Source of the DNA: Nocardia tengchongensis
Lineage (GTDB): Bacteria; Actinomycetota; Actinomycetes; Mycobacteriales; Mycobacteriaceae
Assembly (NCBI RefSeq): GCF_018362975.1
Contig: NZ_CP074371.1
Coordinates: 3,906,001-3,970,000 of the forward strand
Length of the DNA stretch: 64,000 bases
Direction of reading: 5' to 3'
Each line of letters begins with the position of its first letter. Positions within the stretch are counted from its first letter, which is position 1. The translations under genes and the position numbers were made by a program. The notes beneath the pieces are model-generated. The model saw only the letters and a program-made list of their open reading frames with translations, searched no databases and was not told the DNA's origin. Positions 32,674-41,097 of the stretch are shown here, piece by piece.

Positions 32674-32678
32674 GAGGG

Positions 32679-32836
32679 GTGGTCCCGCATGGCCTTCGGC
32701 ATGCCGCTGCCTCATCGGCCATCAGCGCTGGGGCGAATATCAAAGTCGTGCAACGGATGCTGGGCGCAAGACGGCGAAGTCGGCCCTCGACCTCTACGGA
32801 CATCTCTTCCTGGGCGGGCTGCCGTGGACCGCATAG
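32679..32836 (+). pseudogene. 3' remnant of a tyrosine integrase
   Basis: VPHGLRHAAASSAISAGANI followed by KVVQRMLG matches the C-terminal catalytic part (H-x-x-R-H box) of the intact integrase at 39760-40968. The tyrosine-box end SALDLYGHLF follows one frame over and stops at 32836. The N-terminal ~300 residues are gone. It is diverged in sequence from the intact copy, so it comes from a related but older element. It is followed by the same terminator-like palindrome and the same att repeat as the intact gene. Confidence 0.8.
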
Positions 32837-32840
32837 AAAA

Positions 32841-32872
32841 AGGGCGGTTCCGGTGATCACCGAAACCGCCCT
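32841..32872. terminator. Terminator-like palindrome beside the left att site
   Basis: A 32-base palindrome with a single mismatch, nearly identical to the one at 40972-41005 that follows the intact integrase. It lies 7 bases from the left att repeat. Confidence 0.6.
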
Positions 32873-32878
32873 CTACCC

Positions 32879-32933
32879 TGGTGCCGAGTGTGGGAATCGA
32901 ACCCACACGCCCTTCCGGGCAACGGTTTTTGAG
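32879..32933. repeat. Left attachment site (attL), tRNA-Leu 3' fragment
   Basis: 55 bases identical to 41011-41065. On the reverse strand it reads the tRNA-Leu sequence from the anticodon loop CTCAAAA through the variable arm, T arm and acceptor end to CCA. Identity stops at 32933/41065, next to the anticodon loop, a common crossover point for tRNA-integrating tyrosine recombinases. Confidence 0.92.
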
Positions 32934-32975
32934 GTTGACCTTCTCGATGTTTGGGGATTTGGGGTGAGCGCTGGC

Positions 32976-33118
32976 AACGCACGAATCGGTGTTCTGACCG
33001 GCCAATTCGTGCGTTGGACTGTATCGAGCGCGTTGGTTGGGTTGAGGGCTGTTGCGTACCGACCACGTACCGGTGGATGGGCCTGCGACCTCTTGGTCCC
33101 GAACTACCAAACGGTACG
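32976..33118. promoter_or_regulatory. Possible integrase arm sites at the left end
   Basis: Inside the left end lies a perfect 11-bp inverted repeat (32976-32986 with 33005-33015). After it comes TGCGTACC at 33053-33060, then CGTACC at 33066-33071 and its inverse GGTACG at 33113-33118. TGCGTACC also occurs twice, 11 bases apart, at the right end (40944 and 40955). The shared motif at both ends is what arm-type integrase sites would look like. Confidence 0.4.
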
Positions 33119-33259
33119 TTTTGTCCGATGTTGGCGGCTGTCGACGGTGTTGTGACTCGGTCTCTACCAGTGATTCTCAGTGTTGGTGAGGTTGATCCGC
33201 GGGGGCGAAGCTTGCTCGCGCTGCGGACCGTGGCCACTTCGAACAGCGCGTCACGCGGC

Positions 33260-33370
33260 ATGTGCGTACGCATCCGCTGGGAAATCCGCGACGACATCCA
33301 CGAAGCCTTCCTCAGCCTGGCCTGCAGCATCATCTGCTGGCGCAGACTGACCAAACTCCCACTTTGTTAG
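33260..33370 (+). pseudogene. C-terminal fragment of an IS5-family transposase
   Basis: RIRWEIRDDIHEAFLSLACS followed by IICWRRL matches the C-terminus of actinobacterial IS5-type transposases, where a basic R-W-E-R-R-D-D segment precedes a hydrophobic end. Only ~36 residues remain and no catalytic domain is present upstream. It is a dead IS fragment inside the element. Confidence 0.65.
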
Positions 33371-33500
33371 GAGTTCTAAGTGCCCTACGCCCCGAATATT
33401 GGGGGCTCGAAGACTCCGTCTCGATCATGAAAGTGTTCATTTCACATTTGGGGGGCGCGGTCCGGTGGAGGCCGATCGCGGCATCGAAAGGAAATGTATC

Positions 33501-33704
33501 GTGCGGGTTCTCATGACCGCCGCCGCCGCGGCGGCAGTCTTCTCTGCGGGCATCGGCCCGGCCACGGCGGCCCAGCTGCCGCCGACGGACGCCGCGGTCG
33601 CACCGGTGACGCAGACCGTTAGTACCGGTTCGGCCGGCATAGACCTGCCGATCTGCGCCGTGCTGCTCAGTTTCTGTGGCCTGAACCCGCGGCCAATCGG
33701 CTAG
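33501..33704 (+). CDS. Small secreted peptide with one cysteine pair
   Basis: 67 residues. GTG 33501 (AAGGAAA about 9 bases upstream) starts a short basic N-terminus and an Ala-rich hydrophobic core (TAAAAAAVFSAGIGPATAAQ), a clear signal peptide with cleavage probably after ATA. The mature part is about 45 residues with a cysteine pair in LPICAVLLSFCGLNP. No family recognised. It is carried by the mobile element and could be a small exported factor; no immunity or processing gene is adjacent. Confidence 0.5.
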   Translation: MRVLMTAAAAAAVFSAGIGPATAAQLPPTDAAVAPVTQTVSTGSAGIDLPICAVLLSFCGLNPRPIG

Positions 33705-33880
33705 GAATAGTGTCGATTTCCGCGCGGCTACCCAACTGTTCGGCGACGACCAGGACGGACAGCCTTGTTCCCTAATGAACACTCCTCGCGTGCGTACGCG
33801 CGAGACGCGTTGGGACAAAGGGTCGGTATGCATGAAGCCAGCGACACCGGCCCGTCCCCGGACATCCGACAGCCCGAACA

Positions 33881-33995
33881 CTTAAGAGGTGACTCGATTC
33901 CCTCTTATGCGGGTAGTTCAATGCTCCGGCCCCCTGCTTAAGAGGTGAAGCTGCTCCCCTCTTACGAGGTGATACGCCTTCCCTCGTAAGAGGGG
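33881..33995. repeat. Iteron-like direct repeats plus inverted repeat
   Basis: CTTAAGAGGTGA occurs at 33881 and 33937, and as CTTACGAGGTGA at 33961. A perfect 14-bp inverted repeat overlaps the third copy (33956-33969 with 33982-33995, 12-base spacer). The sequence is more AT-rich than its surroundings. The layout fits an operator cluster or a replication/transfer origin of the element. Together with the next three entries it fills the 766-base gene-free stretch 33705-34470. Confidence 0.6.
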
Positions 33996-34005
33996 ATCCC
34001 TTCGT

Positions 34006-34147
34006 TGTGGTCCTCCTCGGTTCGTGCCCCGCAATGCATCGTGACGTTCGCTCGCAACCCTTCCCTTTGTGGTCTTGCTCCCGACGCAACCGAACTGCCA
34101 ACGCAATATCCGCGCCCAACTGCCCCTCGTTGTGGTCCCCTGTGGTC
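34006..34147. repeat. Four copies of TGTGGTC
   Basis: TGTGGTC, mostly within TTGTGGTCC, occurs at 34006, 34068, 34131 and 34141, i.e. at intervals of 62, 63 and 10 bases. No gene is convincing here. The regular spacing suggests protein-binding sites. Confidence 0.4.
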
Positions 34148-34177
34148 CTTCTTGAAACTCTCACTCTCCCAATCTCA

Positions 34178-34326
34178 ATCGCTCCCGCCCATGCCCTCTG
34201 AACCCAAAACTGGCTCTTGTCTCTCGTGCTCCTGACTACCTTCAGCGAAGCGGGAGGTAGTCAGGAGCACGAGAGACAAGAGCCCTGCGCCGAAGGTGCA
34301 GATCAGAGGGCATGGGCAGGAGCGAT
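34178..34326. repeat. Very long hairpin, two stacked stems
   Basis: Inner stem: a perfect 30-bp inverted repeat (34212-34241 with 34255-34284) around a 13-base loop. Outer stem: 24 bp with one mismatch (34178-34201 with 34303-34326). The two are separated by an asymmetric internal loop of 10 and 18 bases. Together they make a 149-base structure with ~53 paired positions, far longer than a terminator. It lies in the gene-free part of the element. Confidence 0.85.
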
Positions 34327-34352
34327 CGACCGGACCAGGACCGGAAAAAGTT

Positions 34353-34412
34353 GTCCCGGCACTATCCAGGCAGTGTCCCGGCACTATCCCGGCACTCTTC
34401 CGGCAGTTATGG
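34353..34412. repeat. Tandem CCGGCACT iterons
   Basis: GTCCCGGCACTATCC occurs at 34353-34367 and 34375-34389 (22-base period). It is followed directly by degenerate copies at 34388-34401 and 34400-34412. They sit between the long hairpin and the end of the reverse-strand HTH-TPR gene. Iterons of this type often bind a replication or partition protein. Confidence 0.5.
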
Positions 34413-34470
34413 ACAGAAAAAGGGCCGTCGGTGAGTTCCGGGGAACCCGCCGACGGCCCACTGCCGATAC

Positions 34471-35826
34471 TTAAGCGACGAGACCGAGCATGTTGCTCGC
34501 ATCCTGGTTGAATTCCTGAACCTGAGGAATCGTCGCGAAGGGCTTCAGCTTTCGCTGAAGATCCGTTACGGCCTCAAGGCACCGGGAGGAGTTCACAGTG
34601 GTGGTCAGCCGGATGACGATCCTCCCGCGCTCCGCAGCTGCTTCGATCTCGTTGCGCTGGATGTGGGCGGCCGCTACTGCCGCCTGGCTGAGACCGCCTC
34701 GCCGTGCGCGGCGTTGCTGAAGGCAATCCTCGATCGACATACCGGCAAACCGATCGATCTCATTGGGCTGGTTCAGATCTCTGAAGACGTTGGCTGCTTC
34801 GCCGAAGAAGTAAGCGCGGTCAATGAAGCGGGCCCATTCGGGTTCCGACTCGTGGTCGACGCTATCGAAGACCCGCTCGGCCCGTCCAATTGCTTTGGTC
34901 GCAGCGGTGGCGTCCCCGAGCCTGGCCAAGGCCCGCGCCTCCAAGATGCCGAGGTCGGCGTAGCAGGCGGGAGAAGCCTCCGGGCCGATGCCATGGAGTC
35001 CGGCTCGGGCAAGGGCGACAGCTTCGTGCGAGTAGCCCAGGAGGTTGGCTTGGTCTGCCATGCCGGCGAGCACGTGCGCACCGAGTACCGGGTTCTCGGC
35101 GGCCTGCGACAGGCGGAGCGCCTGGATGAGATACCGCTGGGCGAGGCCGTGCTCTCCATCGTCGTAGGCCATCCAACCGATGAGGTACGCCTGTTCGGCG
35201 GCGGCGTCATACAGGGCCTTCTGAACGTCGGGCTCGTGTTCGCGCCGGATCAATGGGATGACGGTCGAGTTCATGTAGCTGATGAGTGCGGTGCGGGCGT
35301 GCCCGCCGCCGCGCATGACGTCCATTTCCTGGAAGAGGCTGAACATGTTGCGGATTCCCGCGACCTGGTTCATGCCGATCGCACGCGCACCGCGGTCTGA
35401 GACGGTCTCCTCGAAGGTCGCCAGCAGCCAGTCACGACTCGGGGCGGCCAGGGCCGCCAGGATGAAAGGGGCGCTGAACTGTCCGCTCGTGTAGGCGGTA
35501 CCCAGGTCCCGGATCGTCTCCACGGACGACTCCGGGTCATGGGGATATTGAAGGCCACGCGATGCCACGGACTCGAATCCTTCCATCCCAATATCAGCCG
35601 GGCGGACGCGCCGGCTGAGTCGCTCGGAGAGCACTCGACAGATCAGCGTAGGCGTGATCCCTCGCGGTTTCTGCCCCTTGTTCACCCAGCGATGGATTGC
35701 GGTGTAGTCGTACCGTAGGGCCTGGCCCTCGTCGGCGCCCAGCTCGTTGATGCGCTTCGCGAGCCCGGCCCAGGAGATTCCTGCCTCGGTGATCAGCTCA
35801 GCCAGTTCGGAGTTTCGTTCGGTCAC
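34471..35826 (-). CDS. HTH-TPR transcriptional regulator
   Basis: 451 residues. The N-terminus (ISWAGLAKRINELGADEGQA to RYDYTAIHRWVNKGQKP, about residues 17-58) is a Cro/XRE-like DNA-binding domain. The remainder is helical with TPR-like repeats (AEQAYLIGWMAYDDGEHGLA, LAGMADQANLLGYSHEAVAL). This architecture is common among regulators on actinomycete plasmids and integrative elements. GTG 35826 is chosen (GAGGG 7 bases upstream). It probably controls element genes; ligand or peptide partner unknown. Confidence 0.8.
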   Translation of the reverse strand: MTERNSELAELITEAGISWAGLAKRINELGADEGQALRYDYTAIHRWVNKGQKPRGITPTLICRVLSERLSRRVRPADIGMEGFESVASRGLQYPHDPESSVETIRDLGTAYTSGQFSAPFILAALAAPSRDWLLATFEETVSDRGARAIGMNQVAGIRNMFSLFQEMDVMRGGGHARTALISYMNSTVIPLIRREHEPDVQKALYDAAAEQAYLIGWMAYDDGEHGLAQRYLIQALRLSQAAENPVLGAHVLAGMADQANLLGYSHEAVALARAGLHGIGPEASPACYADLGILEARALARLGDATAATKAIGRAERVFDSVDHESEPEWARFIDRAYFFGEAANVFRDLNQPNEIDRFAGMSIEDCLQQRRARRGGLSQAAVAAAHIQRNEIEAAAERGRIVIRLTTTVNSSRCLEAVTDLQRKLKPFATIPQVQEFNQDASNMLGLVA

Positions 35827-35900
35827 CCGGCCCACCCTCTTTCAACCGAATCTCAGATCCTCGGCTGATGATACGCCCGCGGCTTCGGCCGCAGCCGAAA

Positions 35901-36035
35901 CTGATTGAGGCGGGTTGACACTGCTGTAGTCGCACATAGTGCATTGGATAGTGCTGTCGCACATGGGCTTTCACATGGTGCGCGCACGACGGCGCTGGAG
36001 CTTTCCTGGATGTATGAGTTGGAAGCTGATTGAGG
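35901..36035. promoter_or_regulatory. CTGATTGAGG repeats upstream of the HTH-TPR gene
   Basis: CTGATTGAGG occurs at 35901-35910 and 36026-36035 in the 226-base gap between the two reverse-strand regulator genes. The related CTGATTGACC is at 36450. A 6-bp hairpin lies at 35884-35899. Likely binding sites for one of the element's regulators. Confidence 0.4.
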
Positions 36036-36052
36036 TGGTTGGCGCGGTGGAT

Positions 36053-36391
36053 CTATTGCCGCCGTGGGCCTTTCGCTGCCGATCCCTCGATCAACTCGTA
36101 CAGCTCGGAGACCTGGCTCTCCAGGAGTTTGACACGGGCTTCGAGGTCTGCCTTCTGGCTCGCGTTTGCGGTGCGTACGAAGGTTCCGACGCCTTGCTGA
36201 GACTCGATCAGGCCCAGATCGCGAAGCACATCGAGAGCCCTGTCCACGGTATTCAGGGCGACGTCGTAGTGCGTCATCAGCTCGGCCTTGGTCGGCAGCT
36301 GACTCCCAACTGCGTACGTGCCAGCAATGATCTTGTCGCGGAGATCGTTTGCAATCACCTGGTACTTCGGTGTGCTGGCGGACTCGGTCAT
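36053..36391 (-). CDS. GntR-family regulator, KorSA-like
   Basis: 112 residues. The winged-helix domain (residues ~8-70) is visible as YQVIANDLRDKIIAGTYAVG, LPTKAELMTHYDVALNTVDR and the ending GVGTFV, the GntR pattern. A short coiled-coil tail (ADLEARVKLLESQVSELYEL) replaces the usual ligand domain. KorSA-type GntR proteins repress transfer and excision genes in actinomycete integrative elements. ATG 36391 is preceded, on its own strand, by TATCAT 6 bases upstream, so the mRNA is probably leaderless. Confidence 0.85.
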   Translation of the reverse strand: MTESASTPKYQVIANDLRDKIIAGTYAVGSQLPTKAELMTHYDVALNTVDRALDVLRDLGLIESQQGVGTFVRTANASQKADLEARVKLLESQVSELYELIEGSAAKGPRRQ

Positions 36392-36397
36392 GTGTCA

Positions 36398-36425
36398 ATG
36401 ATAGGAGGTGACTCAGGAGTGACTC
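36398..36425 (-). promoter_or_regulatory. Promoter and operator of the GntR gene
   Basis: On the reverse strand TATCAT (36398-36403) is the -10, 6 bases from the ATG. GTGACTC, read on the + strand, occurs at 36408-36414 and 36419-36425, 11 bases apart, inside the promoter spacer. This placement suits autorepression. GTGACTCG also occurs at 33152, 33889 and 37342 in the element. Confidence 0.5.
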
Positions 36426-36449
36426 GATCCAACCGTTCTCCCCGCATAA

Positions 36450-36470
36450 CTGATTGACCTATGATTGACT
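36450..36470. repeat. Tandem TGATTGAC repeats in the divergent regulatory region
   Basis: TGATTGAC occurs at 36451-36458 and 36462-36469, one helical turn apart, between the GntR gene and the rightward operon that begins at 36607. Probably an operator. Confidence 0.45.
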
Positions 36471-36507
36471 AGTTGAGTAGCGCTGAGAGGTGCTGCGACA
36501 GAAGAAA

Positions 36508-36538
36508 ACTCCCCGACAGTGTCGAGCTGTCGGGGAGT
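36508..36538 (+). terminator. Leader hairpin before the rightward operon
   Basis: A perfect 12-bp inverted repeat (36508-36519 and 36527-36538) with a 7-base loop, 69 bases upstream of the first rightward gene. It is either a terminator for transcription entering from outside or an attenuator of the operon. No U-run follows. Confidence 0.5.
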
Positions 36539-36606
36539 CAGCGCCAAAGCGGTTCCAGCCGCTTCAGCAATTCACTCACTTCCAGGACGAGAGAGGCCCC
36601 TGAAGC

Positions 36607-36927
36607 ATGTCCAGTGTAGAACGATCGCAGCCCGATTCTGAGGGCTGGTACGTCGCGGAGGGCGTCGTCGAGCGGCTCGCGGCCGGACGAATCGAGTACC
36701 ACCGACCGGGCGAGTCGATCGCCGATTTCGAGGCCGGCATCGACGCGCGGATCGCGGCGATCCTGAACCGGTCCAACCAGAACAAGCTGTCCGTGGAACG
36801 CGCTATCGGCGACGGCGGTCGGCTGCCGCGATCGACGGGGATGGCCGATCCCGGACCACAACGGACGGGGGAGAGTCCGGCTGAGGTGTCACCGTACGTC
36901 TGTGTGGATCGGCGGCGGTCGCGGTGA
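36607..36927 (+). CDS. Hypothetical protein, first gene of the element's rightward operon
   Basis: 106 residues with no recognised family. The N-terminal half (EGWYVAEGVVERLAAGRIEY, then ESIADFEAGIDARIAAIL) looks like a small helical domain; the C-terminal part is polar and probably disordered. Its TGA overlaps the next gene's GTG, so the two are coupled. The product is probably specific to this class of element. Confidence 0.55.
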   Translation: MSSVERSQPDSEGWYVAEGVVERLAAGRIEYHRPGESIADFEAGIDARIAAILNRSNQNKLSVERAIGDGGRLPRSTGMADPGPQRTGESPAEVSPYVCVDRRRSR

Positions 36928-37529
36928 AGGTCAATGGCACGGAGATCAGCGGCGGGACCGAGTTGAAAGCGCTTCTACGGAAGCATCATTGGCAGACTCA
37001 CGGCACGTTCCTGCGTGAGTACGACAAAGTCGCTGCCAAGGTCGAGCCGTCCATGGTGGGTCATGGCCCGCAGAAGGCGCAGTTCTACCGGTGGTTGACC
37101 GGTGAAATCAAGGGCCTGCCGCACCCGGATCATTGCCGGGTCCTGGAGGCCATGCTGCCGGGCCAAACCGCCGATCAACTGTTCACGCCCGCGGTCGGGA
37201 TTGAGTCGGAGTCCGACCGCCTGTCGGCAGGTGAGTCACGTAACTCAGGTGATCCAGATGGATCACCTGATGCTGCGGCTCGTGAGCGGGCGCTTGGGGC
37301 GTTGCGGGTTTCGGCCTGGATCGGTGAGTCAAATGGCTCACGTGACTCGGTGGTCGGTTCTGGGGCGGCGCGGTCGCGGTCGCAGCGGGAAGCGACCGCG
37401 GCGATCGATGATCGGGTTCGTTCGCTCATGTCCTGGGTCGGAGATACCGCTCCGGTTAAGGAGCGCGACCTGCGGTCCGAGTCGGCTATGCCCGTGCGGC
37501 CCGCCGTGGACCGGCGGAGGGACCGATGA
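36924..37529 (+). CDS. HTH-domain protein of actinomycete integrative elements
   Basis: 201 residues. Residues ~8-90 contain TELKALLRKHHWQTHGTFLR, AQFYRWLTGEIKGLPHPDH and CRVLEAMLPGQTADQLF, a DNA-binding domain often found in proteins of Streptomyces plasmids and integrative elements. The rest is polar and low in structure, and its codons contain several palindromes (see 37232-37595). GTG 36924 overlaps the upstream stop, and its own stop overlaps the next small frame. Probably a regulator of element genes. Confidence 0.65.
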   Translation: MKVNGTEISGGTELKALLRKHHWQTHGTFLREYDKVAAKVEPSMVGHGPQKAQFYRWLTGEIKGLPHPDHCRVLEAMLPGQTADQLFTPAVGIESESDRLSAGESRNSGDPDGSPDAAARERALGALRVSAWIGESNGSRDSVVGSGAARSRSQREATAAIDDRVRSLMSWVGDTAPVKERDLRSESAMPVRPAVDRRRDR

Positions 37530-37595
37530 CCGGCGATCAGCGGGTCGCCCGCCTCGAATCCAGCGCCCGGCAGGTGGTCCAGAATGAACCACCTG
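37232..37595. repeat. Cluster of palindromes inside coding sequence
   Basis: Four dyads: 37232-37247 (5-bp arms TGAGT/ACTCA), 37245-37270 (perfect 11-bp arms, 4-base spacer), 37326-37348 (GAGTCA/TGACTC) and 37571-37595 (8-bp arms CAGGTGGT/ACCACCTG). The second and fourth share the core CAGGTGrTCCAGA. They lie within the last half of the HTH gene and in the small frame after it. Confidence 0.5.
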
Positions 37596-37630
37596 ACCCG
37601 GTGGTCGGTACGTGCCGAGGTGATGCGTGA
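37526..37630 (+). CDS. Possible 34-residue peptide
   Basis: ATG 37526 overlaps the HTH gene stop (ATGA), and TGA 37628-37630 overlaps the ATG of the next gene, so the frame exactly bridges the two with coupled starts. It contains one of the palindromes. The peptide has no recognisable features; it may exist only to couple translation. Confidence 0.3.
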   Translation: MTGDQRVARLESSARQVVQNEPPDPVVGTCRGDA

Positions 37631-38667
37631 TGGCGGGCGCTGGCGGGAGCCGGCGCGTCCGTCCGGTCGCCGATGACTCGATCATCCTGGGCCTGCGGTC
37701 GGATGGGCGCGGCTACCGTGAGATCGCCGACCTACTCGGCGTCCCGGCCCGTCGGGTTGAGCAAGCCCTGGGTGAGGTTGCGGCGTTGCGCGCCGGCGGC
37801 CTGAGCCACAGCGAGATCGGCCGCCGCGTCGGCCTGGCCCGTACCACCGTGCAGGAATTGTTGCGGGACAAGCGGTCTCAGCGTTCGACCCTGAGAAAGT
37901 CAGCCGCGGTGACCGCGTTGGCCGAGCAAGGCGCGATGCAGCTCGATGTGTTGGGCTGGTTCCTGGACCTGAATCGCAATCACACCTACGCCCTGGTCAA
38001 GGATCTACGGGAGCAACACCTCGTGCGGGATCTGGAGAAGATCGCGGCGGGTGAGAAGTGGGTGATGCTCACCCGGGGCAACGACTCGCGCATTCTCGGG
38101 TTTCCGGTGCGGGAGTTCCGGCCCTCGGTGGGGCGCGCCGAGCATCATCGTGCGGTCGCCCAGGCCCGGATCATGCTCGTCGGCGACGACCTCGAACGGT
38201 GGATTCCCGAGCGGGTCCTGTGGCGTCGGGCGGAGGTGTCCGCGCACGAATCTGGTTCCAAATACAAGGAATTTAGTACGGGCCGCAATCCGCGTGGCGG
38301 TGTCGTCCATATCCATGACGGCCGATTCTTCGCTGACGTGGACGGCCTGTGCGGGTGGTGGGCGCTGGAGGTCGAACTGACCCGCAAGTCCGACAAGGCG
38401 ATGGATGTCGCCCTCCAGGGCGCGCTGCGGGCGGTCGGTACCGCTGCCCCGGAGAAGGTCGTGGGCCTGCTGTACCTGTGCCGCTCCGCGGTGGTCATGG
38501 ACGGCGTCCGCGCCGCCGCTAAACGGCTCCCGCCCGAACTGCGCAACCGCCAGGAGTTGGTGCTGTGCTTCGCCGACTTCGACGACGAATGGGGCGACTT
38601 CCTGACCGAACGCATGGCGAAACGCCAGCGCCGCAACAAAACTCGAACTTCCAAGGATGCGTCATGA
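37630..38667 (+). CDS. Winged-helix protein with two extra N-terminal HTHs, replication-relaxation-like
   Basis: 345 residues. Two helix-turn-helix units open the protein: GYREIADLLGVPARRVEQAL (about 29-48) and GLSHSEIGRRVGLARTTVQE (about 56-75). A winged-helix region follows (QLDVLGWFLDLNRNHTYALV ... GEKWVMLTRG), then a strand-rich domain with FFADVDGLCGWWALEVELTR. The winged helix plus nuclease-like layout resembles the replication-relaxation (Replic_Relax) family, but I cannot confirm a catalytic site. The next gene is a shorter paralogue. ATG 37630 is chosen; GTG 37627 is possible. Confidence 0.6.
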   Translation: MAGAGGSRRVRPVADDSIILGLRSDGRGYREIADLLGVPARRVEQALGEVAALRAGGLSHSEIGRRVGLARTTVQELLRDKRSQRSTLRKSAAVTALAEQGAMQLDVLGWFLDLNRNHTYALVKDLREQHLVRDLEKIAAGEKWVMLTRGNDSRILGFPVREFRPSVGRAEHHRAVAQARIMLVGDDLERWIPERVLWRRAEVSAHESGSKYKEFSTGRNPRGGVVHIHDGRFFADVDGLCGWWALEVELTRKSDKAMDVALQGALRAVGTAAPEKVVGLLYLCRSAVVMDGVRAAAKRLPPELRNRQELVLCFADFDDEWGDFLTERMAKRQRRNKTRTSKDAS

Positions 38668-39389
38668 TTAACACAGAAGACCTCACCGTCCGCGAGGTGC
38701 GTGCCGTGGGCGCCCTGGCCGAAATGCGCGCCCTGCAACTCGATGTCCTCGGCGATCACCTTCGGCTGGGCAAGTCGCAAACCTATGTGGTGGTGCGCAA
38801 GCTGGCCTCCGCTGGCCTGATCCACCACCCGCTGCTGTCGGTGCAGGCGGGCGCGAAATGGGTGGTGCCCACCCCGGCCGCGGTGGCGTGGATGTTGGGC
38901 TGGCGGGCCGGGGATTGGCGGCCCACCCCGCTCTCGGCCGAGCATTGCCGCGCGGTCGCTCAAACCCGTGTCGCATTGGGTGCGTACGCGTCGCACGCGT
39001 GGATGTCGGAGCGGGTCATGCGACACCAGACACCCGGGCCCGGCCGGTATCCCTACGACGGGCGGCTGATTCTCCCGGACTGGCAGTGCGTGGCGGTCAA
39101 GGTCGATACCACCCGGTATCTGACCCCTGAGGACTTCACGCACCGCCTGCACACCATCTACTACCAGGCGCGACACGACCAGTGCGTGAAAGTCCTCTAC
39201 GTGTGCGGCGGCTACATCCGCCCCGAGTCCGCGACCGAGATCGCGACACAGGTGTCGCGCTACGGGGCTGACCTGGACTTTATGGCCGTGAGCCTGGATG
39301 CGCTGCTCGCCCAGCATCGCGGGATGCGACAGTCCGACGGTGGTCTGGTGCTCGCGATGCGACACCGCGCGACAGGCGGTCCGCACTGA
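38664..39389 (+). CDS. Winged-helix paralogue of the preceding protein
   Basis: 241 residues. Aligns with the preceding protein from its winged-helix region onward: ALAEMRALQLDVLGDHLRLG against ALAEQGAMQLDVLGWFLDLN, then TYVVVRKLASAGLIHHPLLS and ERVM. It lacks the two N-terminal HTH units. The second half has GRLILPDWQCVAVKVDTTRY in the place of the partner's nuclease-like strand, with the Glu of E-V-E replaced by Val-Lys-Val, so any catalytic role may be lost here. ATG overlaps the upstream stop (ATGA). The two may form a heterodimer. Confidence 0.6.
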   Translation: MINTEDLTVREVRAVGALAEMRALQLDVLGDHLRLGKSQTYVVVRKLASAGLIHHPLLSVQAGAKWVVPTPAAVAWMLGWRAGDWRPTPLSAEHCRAVAQTRVALGAYASHAWMSERVMRHQTPGPGRYPYDGRLILPDWQCVAVKVDTTRYLTPEDFTHRLHTIYYQARHDQCVKVLYVCGGYIRPESATEIATQVSRYGADLDFMAVSLDALLAQHRGMRQSDGGLVLAMRHRATGGPH

Positions 39390-39502
39390 TGCGACACCAC
39401 CGCGACAGCCGAAGCGACACCCAACGCACCGATCGTGCGCACCGCAACAGCCAATGCGACACGCGACAGACCGATGGTGCGCACCGCGACACCGTGCGCA
39501 CC
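39243..39502. repeat. Dense GCGACA and GTGCGCACC repeat array before xis
   Basis: GCGACA occurs ten times between 39243 and 39491; eight of these fall in 39359-39491. GTGCGCACC occurs at 39435, 39477 and 39494. A perfect 8-bp dyad CGCGACAC/GTGTCGCG lies at 39242-39259. The array spans the end of the upstream gene and most of the 167-base gap before xis. It may be a transfer locus or an excision-control region. Confidence 0.55.
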
Positions 39503-39556
39503 ACACGTGACGCCTTCCACACCATCGCCGAGACCGGCACTGCTCAAGGAGATTTC

Positions 39557-39757
39557 ATGAATGACGACCGCTACCTCCAGGCAAAAGACTGCGAAGCACT
39601 CACCGGCATTCCCGCGGCCACATGGCGGTACTGGGCGTGGGCAGGCAATGGACCGGAGAACTTCAAACTCGGCAACCGTCGGGTCTGGCGCGAGAGCGTA
39701 ATCCGGGCATGGATCGCCGAGCAGGAAGCCGCGACCAAGCGCGGCGGAGCGGCTTAA
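39557..39757 (+). CDS. xis: Excisionase-like DNA-binding protein
   Basis: 66 residues with a MerR/AlpA-type helix-turn-helix: YLQAKDCEALTGIPAATWRY then WAGNGPENFKLGNRRVWRES, ending in a helix that contains VIRAWIAEQE. Such proteins direct the integrase towards excision. ATG 39557 has AAGGAG 5 bases upstream; a longer in-frame reading to 39389 runs through the repeat array and is rejected. It ends 2 bases before the integrase start. Confidence 0.8.
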   Translation: MNDDRYLQAKDCEALTGIPAATWRYWAWAGNGPENFKLGNRRVWRESVIRAWIAEQEAATKRGGAA

Positions 39758-39759
39758 CC

Positions 39760-40968
39760 GTGTCCGGAAGTCGGAATCCGCGCGCCGGAGTTGAAGACCT
39801 CTGGCACAAGACCGTGGTCGAGATTGACCCCGCGACCGGGCGGAAGACGCGAAAGAAGGTCCAGTCTGAGAGGTTCGGGCGCGGGAAGCGTTGGCGAGCA
39901 CGGTACGTCGATCCGAATGGCAACGAACGGGGACCGTCGTTCGATACGAAGAAGGCCGCTCAGAAGTTTCTCGACAGCGATGTCACAACCAAGGTGGTCA
40001 CCGGCACATGGGTAGACCCTGATCGCAGCGGGGTTCACTTCTCGATCGTCGCTGAGAAGTGGTTCTCGTCCAAGTCGTTCCGCAAGCCCAAGACGGTGGC
40101 GGGCTACCGCTCGCTGCTCGACGGCATCGTCATACCGCGGTGGGGGGAGGTCCCGTTACGAGACATCGAATTCGAGGACATCCAAGATTGGATTGTGGAG
40201 CTGTCACAGTCGGGCAGCAGCAGATTCGAGGGTCGAGGGCTGTCGGCATCGCGGGTGATTCAGTCATATCAGGTGCTCAACCAGGTTTTGCGCTATGCGA
40301 TCAAGGCCAAGCGGCTGGCGACAAACCCGGCCAACGAGGTTGATCTCCCTGCGCTGGTAAGTGGCGAGCGTCGGTACCTCACCCACCTCGAAGTGATGCG
40401 CCTCGCGATGGCCGCCGGCCGATTCCGTCCGCTCGTGTTGACCCTGGCCTACACCGGGATTCGTTTCGGCGAAGCCATCGCGCTGCGGGCGTACTCGGTT
40501 AATCCCGAGACGCAGCGGATCACCGTGGCCCGTTCGGCGACGCCCGTTACCGGGCGGGGGTACGTGGAGACTGGCACAAAAAACCACACCACCCGTGCGG
40601 TGCCGATCCCTGCCACCCTGGCGAACGAACTCCGGGTGTTGCTCGAAGACCTCGAGGTCGATGCCCTGATCTTCCCCAGCCGCAAGGGTGGGTTCCTGAC
40701 GTCCACGGAGTTCCGCTGGGTCTTCGACCAGGCAGCCCAGGAAGTCGGTCTAAAGGGTGTCGTGCCGCATGGCCTGCGGCACACGGCCGCGTCGTTAGCG
40801 ATCAGTGCCGGGGCGAATATCAAAGTGGTGCAGCGGATGTTGGGGCACAAGACGGCGATGTTGACCCTGGACCTGTACGGGCACCTGTTCCCCGACGATT
40901 TGGACGCTGTGGCTGCGGGCATGGAGTCGGGCGCTCAAGCTGCTGCGTACCAGCTGCGTACCGGATAG
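39760..40968 (+). CDS. int: Site-specific tyrosine integrase
   Basis: 402 residues. The N-terminal part (KRWRARYVDPNGNERGPSFD) is the AP2-like arm-binding domain, followed by a core-binding SAM-like domain (about residues 85-190) and the catalytic domain. Catalytic residues are visible: Arg in YTGIRFGEA, the H-x-x-R-H box in HGLRHTAAS, and the Tyr in TLDLYGHLF. It recombines the tRNA-Leu att sites at 32879 and 41011. GTG 39760 is chosen as the start, although its ribosome-binding site is weak; coupling to xis may help. It ends 42 bases from attR. Confidence 0.95.
   Translation: MSGSRNPRAGVEDLWHKTVVEIDPATGRKTRKKVQSERFGRGKRWRARYVDPNGNERGPSFDTKKAAQKFLDSDVTTKVVTGTWVDPDRSGVHFSIVAEKWFSSKSFRKPKTVAGYRSLLDGIVIPRWGEVPLRDIEFEDIQDWIVELSQSGSSRFEGRGLSASRVIQSYQVLNQVLRYAIKAKRLATNPANEVDLPALVSGERRYLTHLEVMRLAMAAGRFRPLVLTLAYTGIRFGEAIALRAYSVNPETQRITVARSATPVTGRGYVETGTKNHTTRAVPIPATLANELRVLLEDLEVDALIFPSRKGGFLTSTEFRWVFDQAAQEVGLKGVVPHGLRHTAASLAISAGANIKVVQRMLGHKTAMLTLDLYGHLFPDDLDAVAAGMESGAQAAAYQLRTG
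40944..40962. promoter_or_regulatory. Possible integrase arm sites at the right end
   Basis: TGCGTACC occurs at 40944-40951 and 40955-40962, an 11-base direct repeat inside the last codons of int. The same octamer is found at 33053 near the left end. Confidence 0.4.
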
Positions 40969-40971
40969 CAG

Positions 40972-41005
40972 AAGGGCGGTCCCGGTGATCACCGAAACCG
41001 CCCTT
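40972..41005. terminator. Bidirectional terminator between int and tRNA-Leu
   Basis: A 34-base near-perfect palindrome 3 bases after the integrase stop and 5 bases before the tRNA 3' end. It can end int in one direction and the tRNA transcript in the other. A near copy is at 32841-32872. Confidence 0.75.
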
Positions 41006-41010
41006 TATCT

Positions 41011-41065
41011 TGGTGCCGAGTGTGGGAATCGAACCCACACGCCCTTCCGGGCAACGGTTTTTGAG
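41011..41065. repeat. Right attachment site (attR) within tRNA-Leu
   Basis: The right copy of the 55-bp direct repeat, covering the 3' end of the intact tRNA-Leu gene up to the anticodon loop. Confidence 0.92.
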
Positions 41066-41097
41066 ACCGTCGCGTCTGCCAATTCCGCCAACTCGGC
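41011..41097 (-). tRNA. tRNA-Leu (CAA)
   Basis: An 87-base type II tRNA including encoded CCA. The acceptor stem is GCCGAGT with ACTCGGC (41091-41097 with 41015-41021). The anticodon loop CTCAAAA gives anticodon CAA, which reads UUG. The variable arm TGCCCGGAAGGGCG and the T arm are intact. The 3' part from the anticodon loop on is supplied by the integrated element and is identical to the displaced fragment at 32879-32933. Confidence 0.95.

Follow-up and report, generated by a model that had tools for sequence, protein, structure and literature searches.

The 64-kb stretch of DNA analysed here (the window; G000:C1:3906001-3970000 of the 8.0-Mb single-contig genome of Nocardia tengchongensis) carries a compact element of about 8.1 kb at a tRNA-Leu(CAA) gene. 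On balance, this element appears to be a helper-dependent integrative and mobilisable element (IME), which would possess a divergent relaxosome of its own, encoded by two genes that we call wh1 and wh2, and use the ATPase of longer relatives. It resembles a reduced form of its larger Nocardia relatives in which the integration and DNA-recognition parts have been kept, and its movement probably relies on the DNA pump of such a relative. The initial annotation had already raised the possibility of a satellite dependent on functions borrowed from a larger element; this is now the best reading, because longer elements share wh1, and some of them also xis and int, with the window element and carry ATPase and primase-like genes that the latter lacks.

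The element is bracketed by two identical 55-bp direct repeats, 8132 bp apart and given on the plus strand. The left attachment site (att) copy (32879-32933) corresponds to the 3' part of tRNA-Leu, and the right copy (41011-41065) lies within an intact tRNA-Leu(CAA) gene, which ARAGORN placed on the minus strand at 41011-41097; sequence identity and the tRNA prediction thus agree with the boundaries first proposed. When the left att region was searched against its own genome, it was found in two places only, together with short inverted matches inside them. The left copy is itself part of a longer 113-nt repeat (91%). At the right end of the element, xis (39557-39757, plus strand) encodes a 66-aa AlpA/HTH_17-like protein (PHROG 66, 9.1e-9), copies of which are 74-85% identical in other elements by tblastn. 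It is followed by the tyrosine integrase gene int (39709-40968, plus strand; PF00589, 1.4e-20), the start of which is approximate, the frame being open from 39622.

No translocase, relaxase or replication (Rep) family was found over the curated cut-off in 20 frames with Pfam, none in the 8 main frames with NCBIfam and none among the PHROG matches. The expected int and xis genes and the regulators described below were all recovered, and the absence of a translocase or Rep protein, including any TraB or Rep domain, withstood the profile searches. As in IMEs, a site-specific integration module (int and the att repeats) is therefore present without a complete transfer apparatus. A classical actinomycete integrative and conjugative element (AICE) of the pSAM2 type is ruled out, since no FtsK/SpoIIIE-type transfer protein was detected in the Pfam-scanned frames, and neither RepSA, RepAM, Prim-Pol nor any other Rep family scored over the cut-off in the three collections. 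Below threshold, wh2 matched the NCBIfam MobC replication-relaxation family with E 0.2, and the GntR-type protein matched Phage_rep_org_N with 18.3 bits (cut-off 23.3), which is read as a winged-helix cross-match.

In order to place the element in its family, relatives of wh1 were collected. They were present in 67 of 150 genomes of the genus. In a family-level sample the wh1 profile matched 14 of 201 genomes, five of which belong to the genus itself, two to other genera at E <=1e-27, and seven give weak matches to the helix-turn-helix (HTH) part. The nearest wh1 homologue is 99% identical and is labelled N. tengchongensis, and the named homologues of wh1 and wh2 are all from Nocardia, apart from one wh2 match labelled Streptomyces gardneri. 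The search of the att region and of the paralogues in other Nocardia genomes, recommended at the outset, gave related elements, one of them (locus L068; loci are numbered L, genomes G) a longer locus at the same tRNA-Leu(CAA), whose Int and xis are 82% and 85% identical to those of the window element.

The locus set comprised 41 loci, 40 fetched and the window. In 31 of them, wh1 or a shorter relative (L066) occurs together with an ATPase of about 670 aa. Nine loci are compact: they have wh2 and the int end, and the ATPase cluster is absent from all nine. The last one, L069, holds only a cut wh1. A Toprim protein was found in 22 of the 40 fetched loci, and a protein of the cluster that includes the DUF2637 protein of L068 in 21. 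With lengths of 6.0-12.0 kb, the nine compact elements come from seven Nocardia genomes, and direct repeats of 21-55 bp flank every one of them; at six of them the site is a tRNA gene (Leu, Pro twice, Ala, Arg and Phe). In L031 and L060, no xis gene could be discerned from the sequence. The longer loci lack wh2, which the compact elements conserve. In the window, L031, L033, L050 and L060, wh1 and wh2 share 4 nt at the wh1 stop, and the ATPase start overlaps this stop likewise in L068 and L053; because both genes start in the wh1 stop in the same way, wh2 occupies the slot of the ATPase. More distant loci, with a shorter wh1-like protein and a related ATPase (about 300-390 bits), were seen in G103:C11, G119:C1 and other Nocardia genomes.

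This distribution also bears on the idea that the element is a decayed, immobile remnant of a longer one. The lack of tra and rep genes would fit such a remnant, as would an IS5 fragment and an integrase relic at the left side. However, a dead remnant is quite unlikely because nine places share this combination of genes, each with its matching att repeats; besides, wh2 is conserved although absent from the longer elements, and the int, xis, wh1 and wh2 frames are open in the window. The small size and the int/xis layout might also recall a satellite that a helper phage packages, but this is hardly credible and was rejected: among 50,697 phage records nothing matched wh1 significantly (best E 0.4), Pfam, NCBIfam and PHROGs revealed neither packaging nor capsid genes, and the relatives carry a transfer-type ATPase. 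A plasmid origin was likewise rejected, as neither wh1 nor the ATPase of the longer elements was matched in 72,556 plasmid records.

The fold of the paralogues was addressed by profile and structure-model comparisons. wh1 (37627-38667, plus strand) appears to combine HTH repeats, a winged helix and a PD-(D/E)XK-like domain, and wh2 (38664-39389, plus strand) is homologous to it (hhalign, 4e-43). In the 45-row wh1 alignment (the window, 42 of 83 homologues, L031 and L050), H230, D231, E248-V-E250 and K254, which include a D...ExE motif, are invariant in every row. In the 12-row wh2 alignment, which was built without L051, L057 and L063, the Asp is kept throughout, and the first Glu of ExE is replaced by Lys in 11 rows and by Leu in one; the wh2 of L063 also has Leu at this position. 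A family scan of the 45 wh1 members was evaluated for the 25 commonest families.

When compared with a profile of 10 Nocardia PF13814 proteins (10 of 20 Nocardia loci), wh2 aligned over 200 columns with an E value of 5.3e-5 and a probability of 66.8; the highest value among 40 column-shuffled controls was 2.5, and the reversed control gave 0.1. The wh1 model (predicted local distance difference test, pLDDT, 89.7) gave seven viral structure matches at E <=0.001. The second-ranked one, gp146 of Bacillus phage G (7.4e-7), is itself a PF13814 protein (4.1e-25) and belongs to a PHROG labelled 'replication initiation by nicking'; among the five best viral rows, family identity was examined for gp146 alone. 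With the wh2 model (pLDDT 84.5), the best rows from the PDB included Can2, EcoT38I and EcoO109I (E 0.0045-0.016), which we take to be PD-(D/E)XK nucleases. In a Foldseek comparison of the whole wh1 model with the PDB, methyltransferase rows of low template modelling (TM) score came on top. Further structure searches gave lists filled by winged-helix regulators, one domain dominating, so that the lack of nuclease folds in them excludes nothing, and the wh1 profile retrieved an engineered-looking repeat protein and HTH proteins among solved structures. Taken together, the comparisons point to wh1 and wh2 as Replic_Relax-related proteins with a winged helix and a probable PD-(D/E)XK-like domain; they are Replic_Relax/MOBC-like, not members of PF13814. 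The 'novel winged-helix paralogues' of the initial annotation are paralogues with a winged helix and, probably, a second, nuclease-like domain.

Two further traces of these families were met during the searches. A scan of the contigs for wh2 gave two loci, in the contigs of L033 and L050, and a wh2-like fragment was seen at G017:C5:33952-34329. The sole PF13814 match of the own genome is a fragment with an internal stop at G000:C1:3207989-3208201.

The same fold sustains the main rival, replication initiated by nicking, in which wh1 and wh2 would mainly form a replication initiator: the circle would replicate from wh1 nicks, with a repeat array as origin and with transfer secondary or absent. 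The proposal that the paralogue pair is an initiator is kept alive because the fold includes nicking initiators, although satellite borrowing is the better reading. The best verified structural relative, gp146, stands in a nicking-initiator family, origins typically have repeat arrays, and no other Rep candidate was seen in the element with Pfam, NCBIfam or PHROGs. Nevertheless, the presence of wh1 or its relative beside a coupling-type ATPase in 31 loci points to transfer, the frequency of the Toprim protein in the fetched loci implies that wh1 is not obviously the sole replication gene of the longer elements, and plasmid records hold no match to wh1 or to the ATPase. We therefore consider a mainly replicative role rather improbable, with the proviso that the initiator and mobilisation readings may both be true.

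A strand-biased array of GCGACA[CG] and TGCGCACC units (39018-39493, plus strand), recognised by k-mer counts against shuffled sequences, occupies the 3' half of wh2 and the gap between wh2 and xis. It is a candidate origin of transfer (oriT), cis-acting locus of transfer (clt) or replication origin. One strand has 11 copies of GCGACA within the 450 bp that precede xis, a number that none of 300 dinucleotide shuffles attained. Of the 40 GCGACASS sites of the window, 10 start at 39020-39486, nine of these on the plus strand. Over the whole window the enrichment of GCGACASS is mild (40 versus 30, attained by 5 of 100 shuffles); the clustering, not the overall frequency, is the signal. As in clt loci, the array is a cluster of short repeats near putative transfer genes.

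The array recurs in the family. In all nine compact loci, the strongest forward-biased stretch in the CGACA/GCACC count lies soon after wh1, before or at the xis-int end. In 20 of 28 longer loci, at least 7 units in 300 bp (wide definition) were found, in an interval of 5.0-9.6 kb after wh1. Both unit types tend to occur in compact elements and one type in longer ones, a link with p 3e-5 (wide definition) or 0.03 (strict) that was noticed post hoc and depends on the definition; this comparison left out L042, L065, L069 and L070 and set a 4.6-kb interval in the longer loci against 1.1 kb in the compact ones.

Since xis-int follows directly on the array in the window, and the structural matches of the pair are dominated by winged-helix domains, the array could be a regulator-binding cluster for xis-int, with wh1 and wh2 as transcription factors devoid of nuclease function. 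This explanation is unlikely: in L037 and similar longer elements wh1 separates int from the dense repeats, which are found towards the far end of the operon, and the acidic motif of wh1 is invariant in all 45 alignment rows.

From this anatomy and these homologies, we infer how a helper-dependent mobilisable element could move. Xis and Int would excise the circle, and the wh1/wh2 pair would bind the array. wh1 would then nick or mark the circle, like a MOBC-type relaxase or a nicking initiator, wh2 presumably being a non-catalytic DNA-binding partner. Finally, a longer element resident in the same cell would supply the TrwB/HerA-like ATPase on which the complex docks and which moves the DNA. 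Between such events, the GntR-type and NsdA-type regulators would hold the element silent.

The candidate helper ATPase was characterised on 19 of the 31 loci, longer or cut gene calls having been left out of the alignment. Among these 19 members, 13 matched TrwB, three HerA (DUF87) and one FtsK, and the profile gave only weak rows against solved structures, with HerA on top at E 0.51. The comparison with pSAM2 and TraB made earlier is therefore loose. Two ATPase loci, 1774998-1777013 and 3446197-3448182, are present in the own genome, and the ATPase frame of the longer element at 1.77 Mb is open. A strong ATPase copy (at least 900 bits) was found in six of the seven compact-element genomes versus 29 of 148 overall (p 2e-4; p 7e-4 at a 600-bit cut-off), statistics that ignore relatedness and use cut-offs chosen afterwards.

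This last limit is one of several points that weigh against a helper-dependent element with its own relaxosome. One compact-element genome, G080, has no strong ATPase copy, and in the longer element of the own genome (G000:C1:1774998-1778073) wh1 is split over two frames. wh2 is partial in compact element L051, and the array of L060 is weak in the CGACA/GCACC count, its k-mers being not significant. The two repeat types are not explained by the recognition-helix residues of wh1 and wh2. Concerning the fold, wh1 compared with the PF13814 profile was not significant (E 0.14), and a merged wh1 and wh2 profile scored below wh2 alone (probability 19.5, E 0.0012). With hmmscan, wh1 and wh2 of the window and eight further wh2 proteins had no PF13814 match, and all PDB Foldseek rows of both models were above E 0.001.

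More tentatively, a two-tier mobile system centred on Nocardia can be envisaged. The longer elements would have one Replic_Relax-like protein and a coupling-type ATPase, and in their compact satellites a second, motif-altered copy would have replaced the ATPase; the pair might read the two-type array and hijack the pump of the larger element.

Known systems offer partial parallels, drawn here from published accounts that were available in part. Frankia integrative elements without tra or rep were described in 2011 as remnant or mobilizable. They resemble the present elements in being actinomycete integrative elements of this kind, one of them, Feul5809, having a KorSA-like GntR regulator. However, the available part of that account gives no relaxosome pair or repeat array, whereas the compact family described here recurs and is characterised by its conserved wh1/wh2 pair. 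In two streptococcal IMEs, a relaxase with the MobC domain PF13814 is combined with a VirD4 coupling protein (PMC5357655), a pairing of nuclease-type relaxase and coupling protein that the longer Nocardia elements appear to share. According to the same partial source, these IMEs have a serine integrase; the compact element has a tyrosine integrase, no coupling protein, and a second relaxase-like paralogue, and its proteins stay below the PF13814 cut-off.

For the MOBC relaxases, such as CloDF13 MobC and pAD1 TraX, a kinship with PD-(D/E)XK proteins has been described, and the TraX target at oriT is a set of five direct repeats (PMC12857230). The putative nuclease-like domain and the repeat array find their counterparts there; in contrast, wh1 and wh2 fail membership by sequence and are two paralogues, one of them motif-altered, in a relaxosome that is putative. 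Streptomyces clt loci are clusters of 7-9-bp repeats similar in sequence to the Nocardia units (pWTY27, TGACACC four times; pJV1, CCGCACA[CG][CG] nine times; PMC3583192). In the pWTY27 case, however, as far as the excerpt goes, clt lies at, and is bound by, its own TraA translocase (PMC3583192), and the compact element encodes no translocase. Defective Streptomyces AICEs are discussed as possibly mobilised by helpers, as proposed here, but they keep traB, which is absent from the compact element (PMC9513070, consulted in part).

The remaining genes of the element lie to the left of wh1. A 454-aa NsdA-family tetratricopeptide repeat (TPR) regulator is encoded at 34471-35835 on the minus strand (NF053720, 6.7e-115; PHROG 10886, 6.1e-122), and a 112-aa GntR-type regulator at 36053-36391 on the minus strand (PF00392, 8.2e-17). 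A 201-aa gene 5' of wh1 (36924-37529, plus strand) had no Pfam, NCBIfam or PHROG family; relatives of its product (protein cluster 24) occur upstream of wh1 in several compact elements by tblastn. Inside this gene, at 37230-37349, palindromic TCAGGTGATCCAGATGGATCACCTGA and GTGAGTCA units were seen, and units like them precede the GntR gene at 36408-36426; their whole-window counts are not above chance. GTGASTCR sites were not enriched in the window either (12 versus 11.4 by chance). At 33267-33391, in the left, gene-poor part, a remnant resembles transposase genes of the IS5 family from Streptomyces plasmids (about 91% over 125 nt). Where no gene was recognised, an almost perfect inverted repeat of 35 nt is accompanied by short direct repeats of TGTCCCGGCACTATCC (34212-34284 and 34352-34406), possibly marking a terminator or a second cis site.

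The insertion site has a history of its own. To the left of the element, the 3' end of a second, related integrase gene persists as a relic (32676-32860, plus strand) that aligns to the element's int as two gap-free segments of 80-82% identity and is a trace of an earlier occupant of the tRNA-Leu site. The tRNA-Leu(CAA) region was present in 147 of 148 Nocardia genomes, none of which offered an empty site from the same species. Among the 30 loci inspected, an integrase related to int lies within 1.5 kb of the tRNA in 10, own locus counted, and a flank homologous to window 24.8-27.7 kb adjoins it in eight, for example L095 (G080). In L106 (G066), the flank is homologous to window 28.9-29.5 kb, and window ~29.5-32.9 kb is an extra block relative to G066 as well. 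Judged from these sequences, the tRNA-Leu(CAA) site is a hot spot. The block at ~29.5-32.9 kb ends at the integrase relic and holds open reading frames named by eye as P450, ferredoxin reductase and ferredoxin-like; absent beside the tRNA in G066, it is perhaps cargo of an earlier element.

In titles and abstract beginnings, a scope outside which most subscription journals fall, no description of this wh1/wh2 Nocardia family was found. A 2017 review of IMEs names, in its available part, a single canonical one for Actinobacteria, and mobilisable satellites of the simple, ATPase-driven transfer systems of actinomycetes seem, in the sources seen in part, barely described. Each component can now be pointed to, from the candidate relaxosome and the array it would target to the ATPase that probably acts as helper, so that helper dependence is directly testable. 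Moreover, many Nocardia islands encode proteins at present annotated as hypothetical, for which a likely role can be proposed from this analysis.

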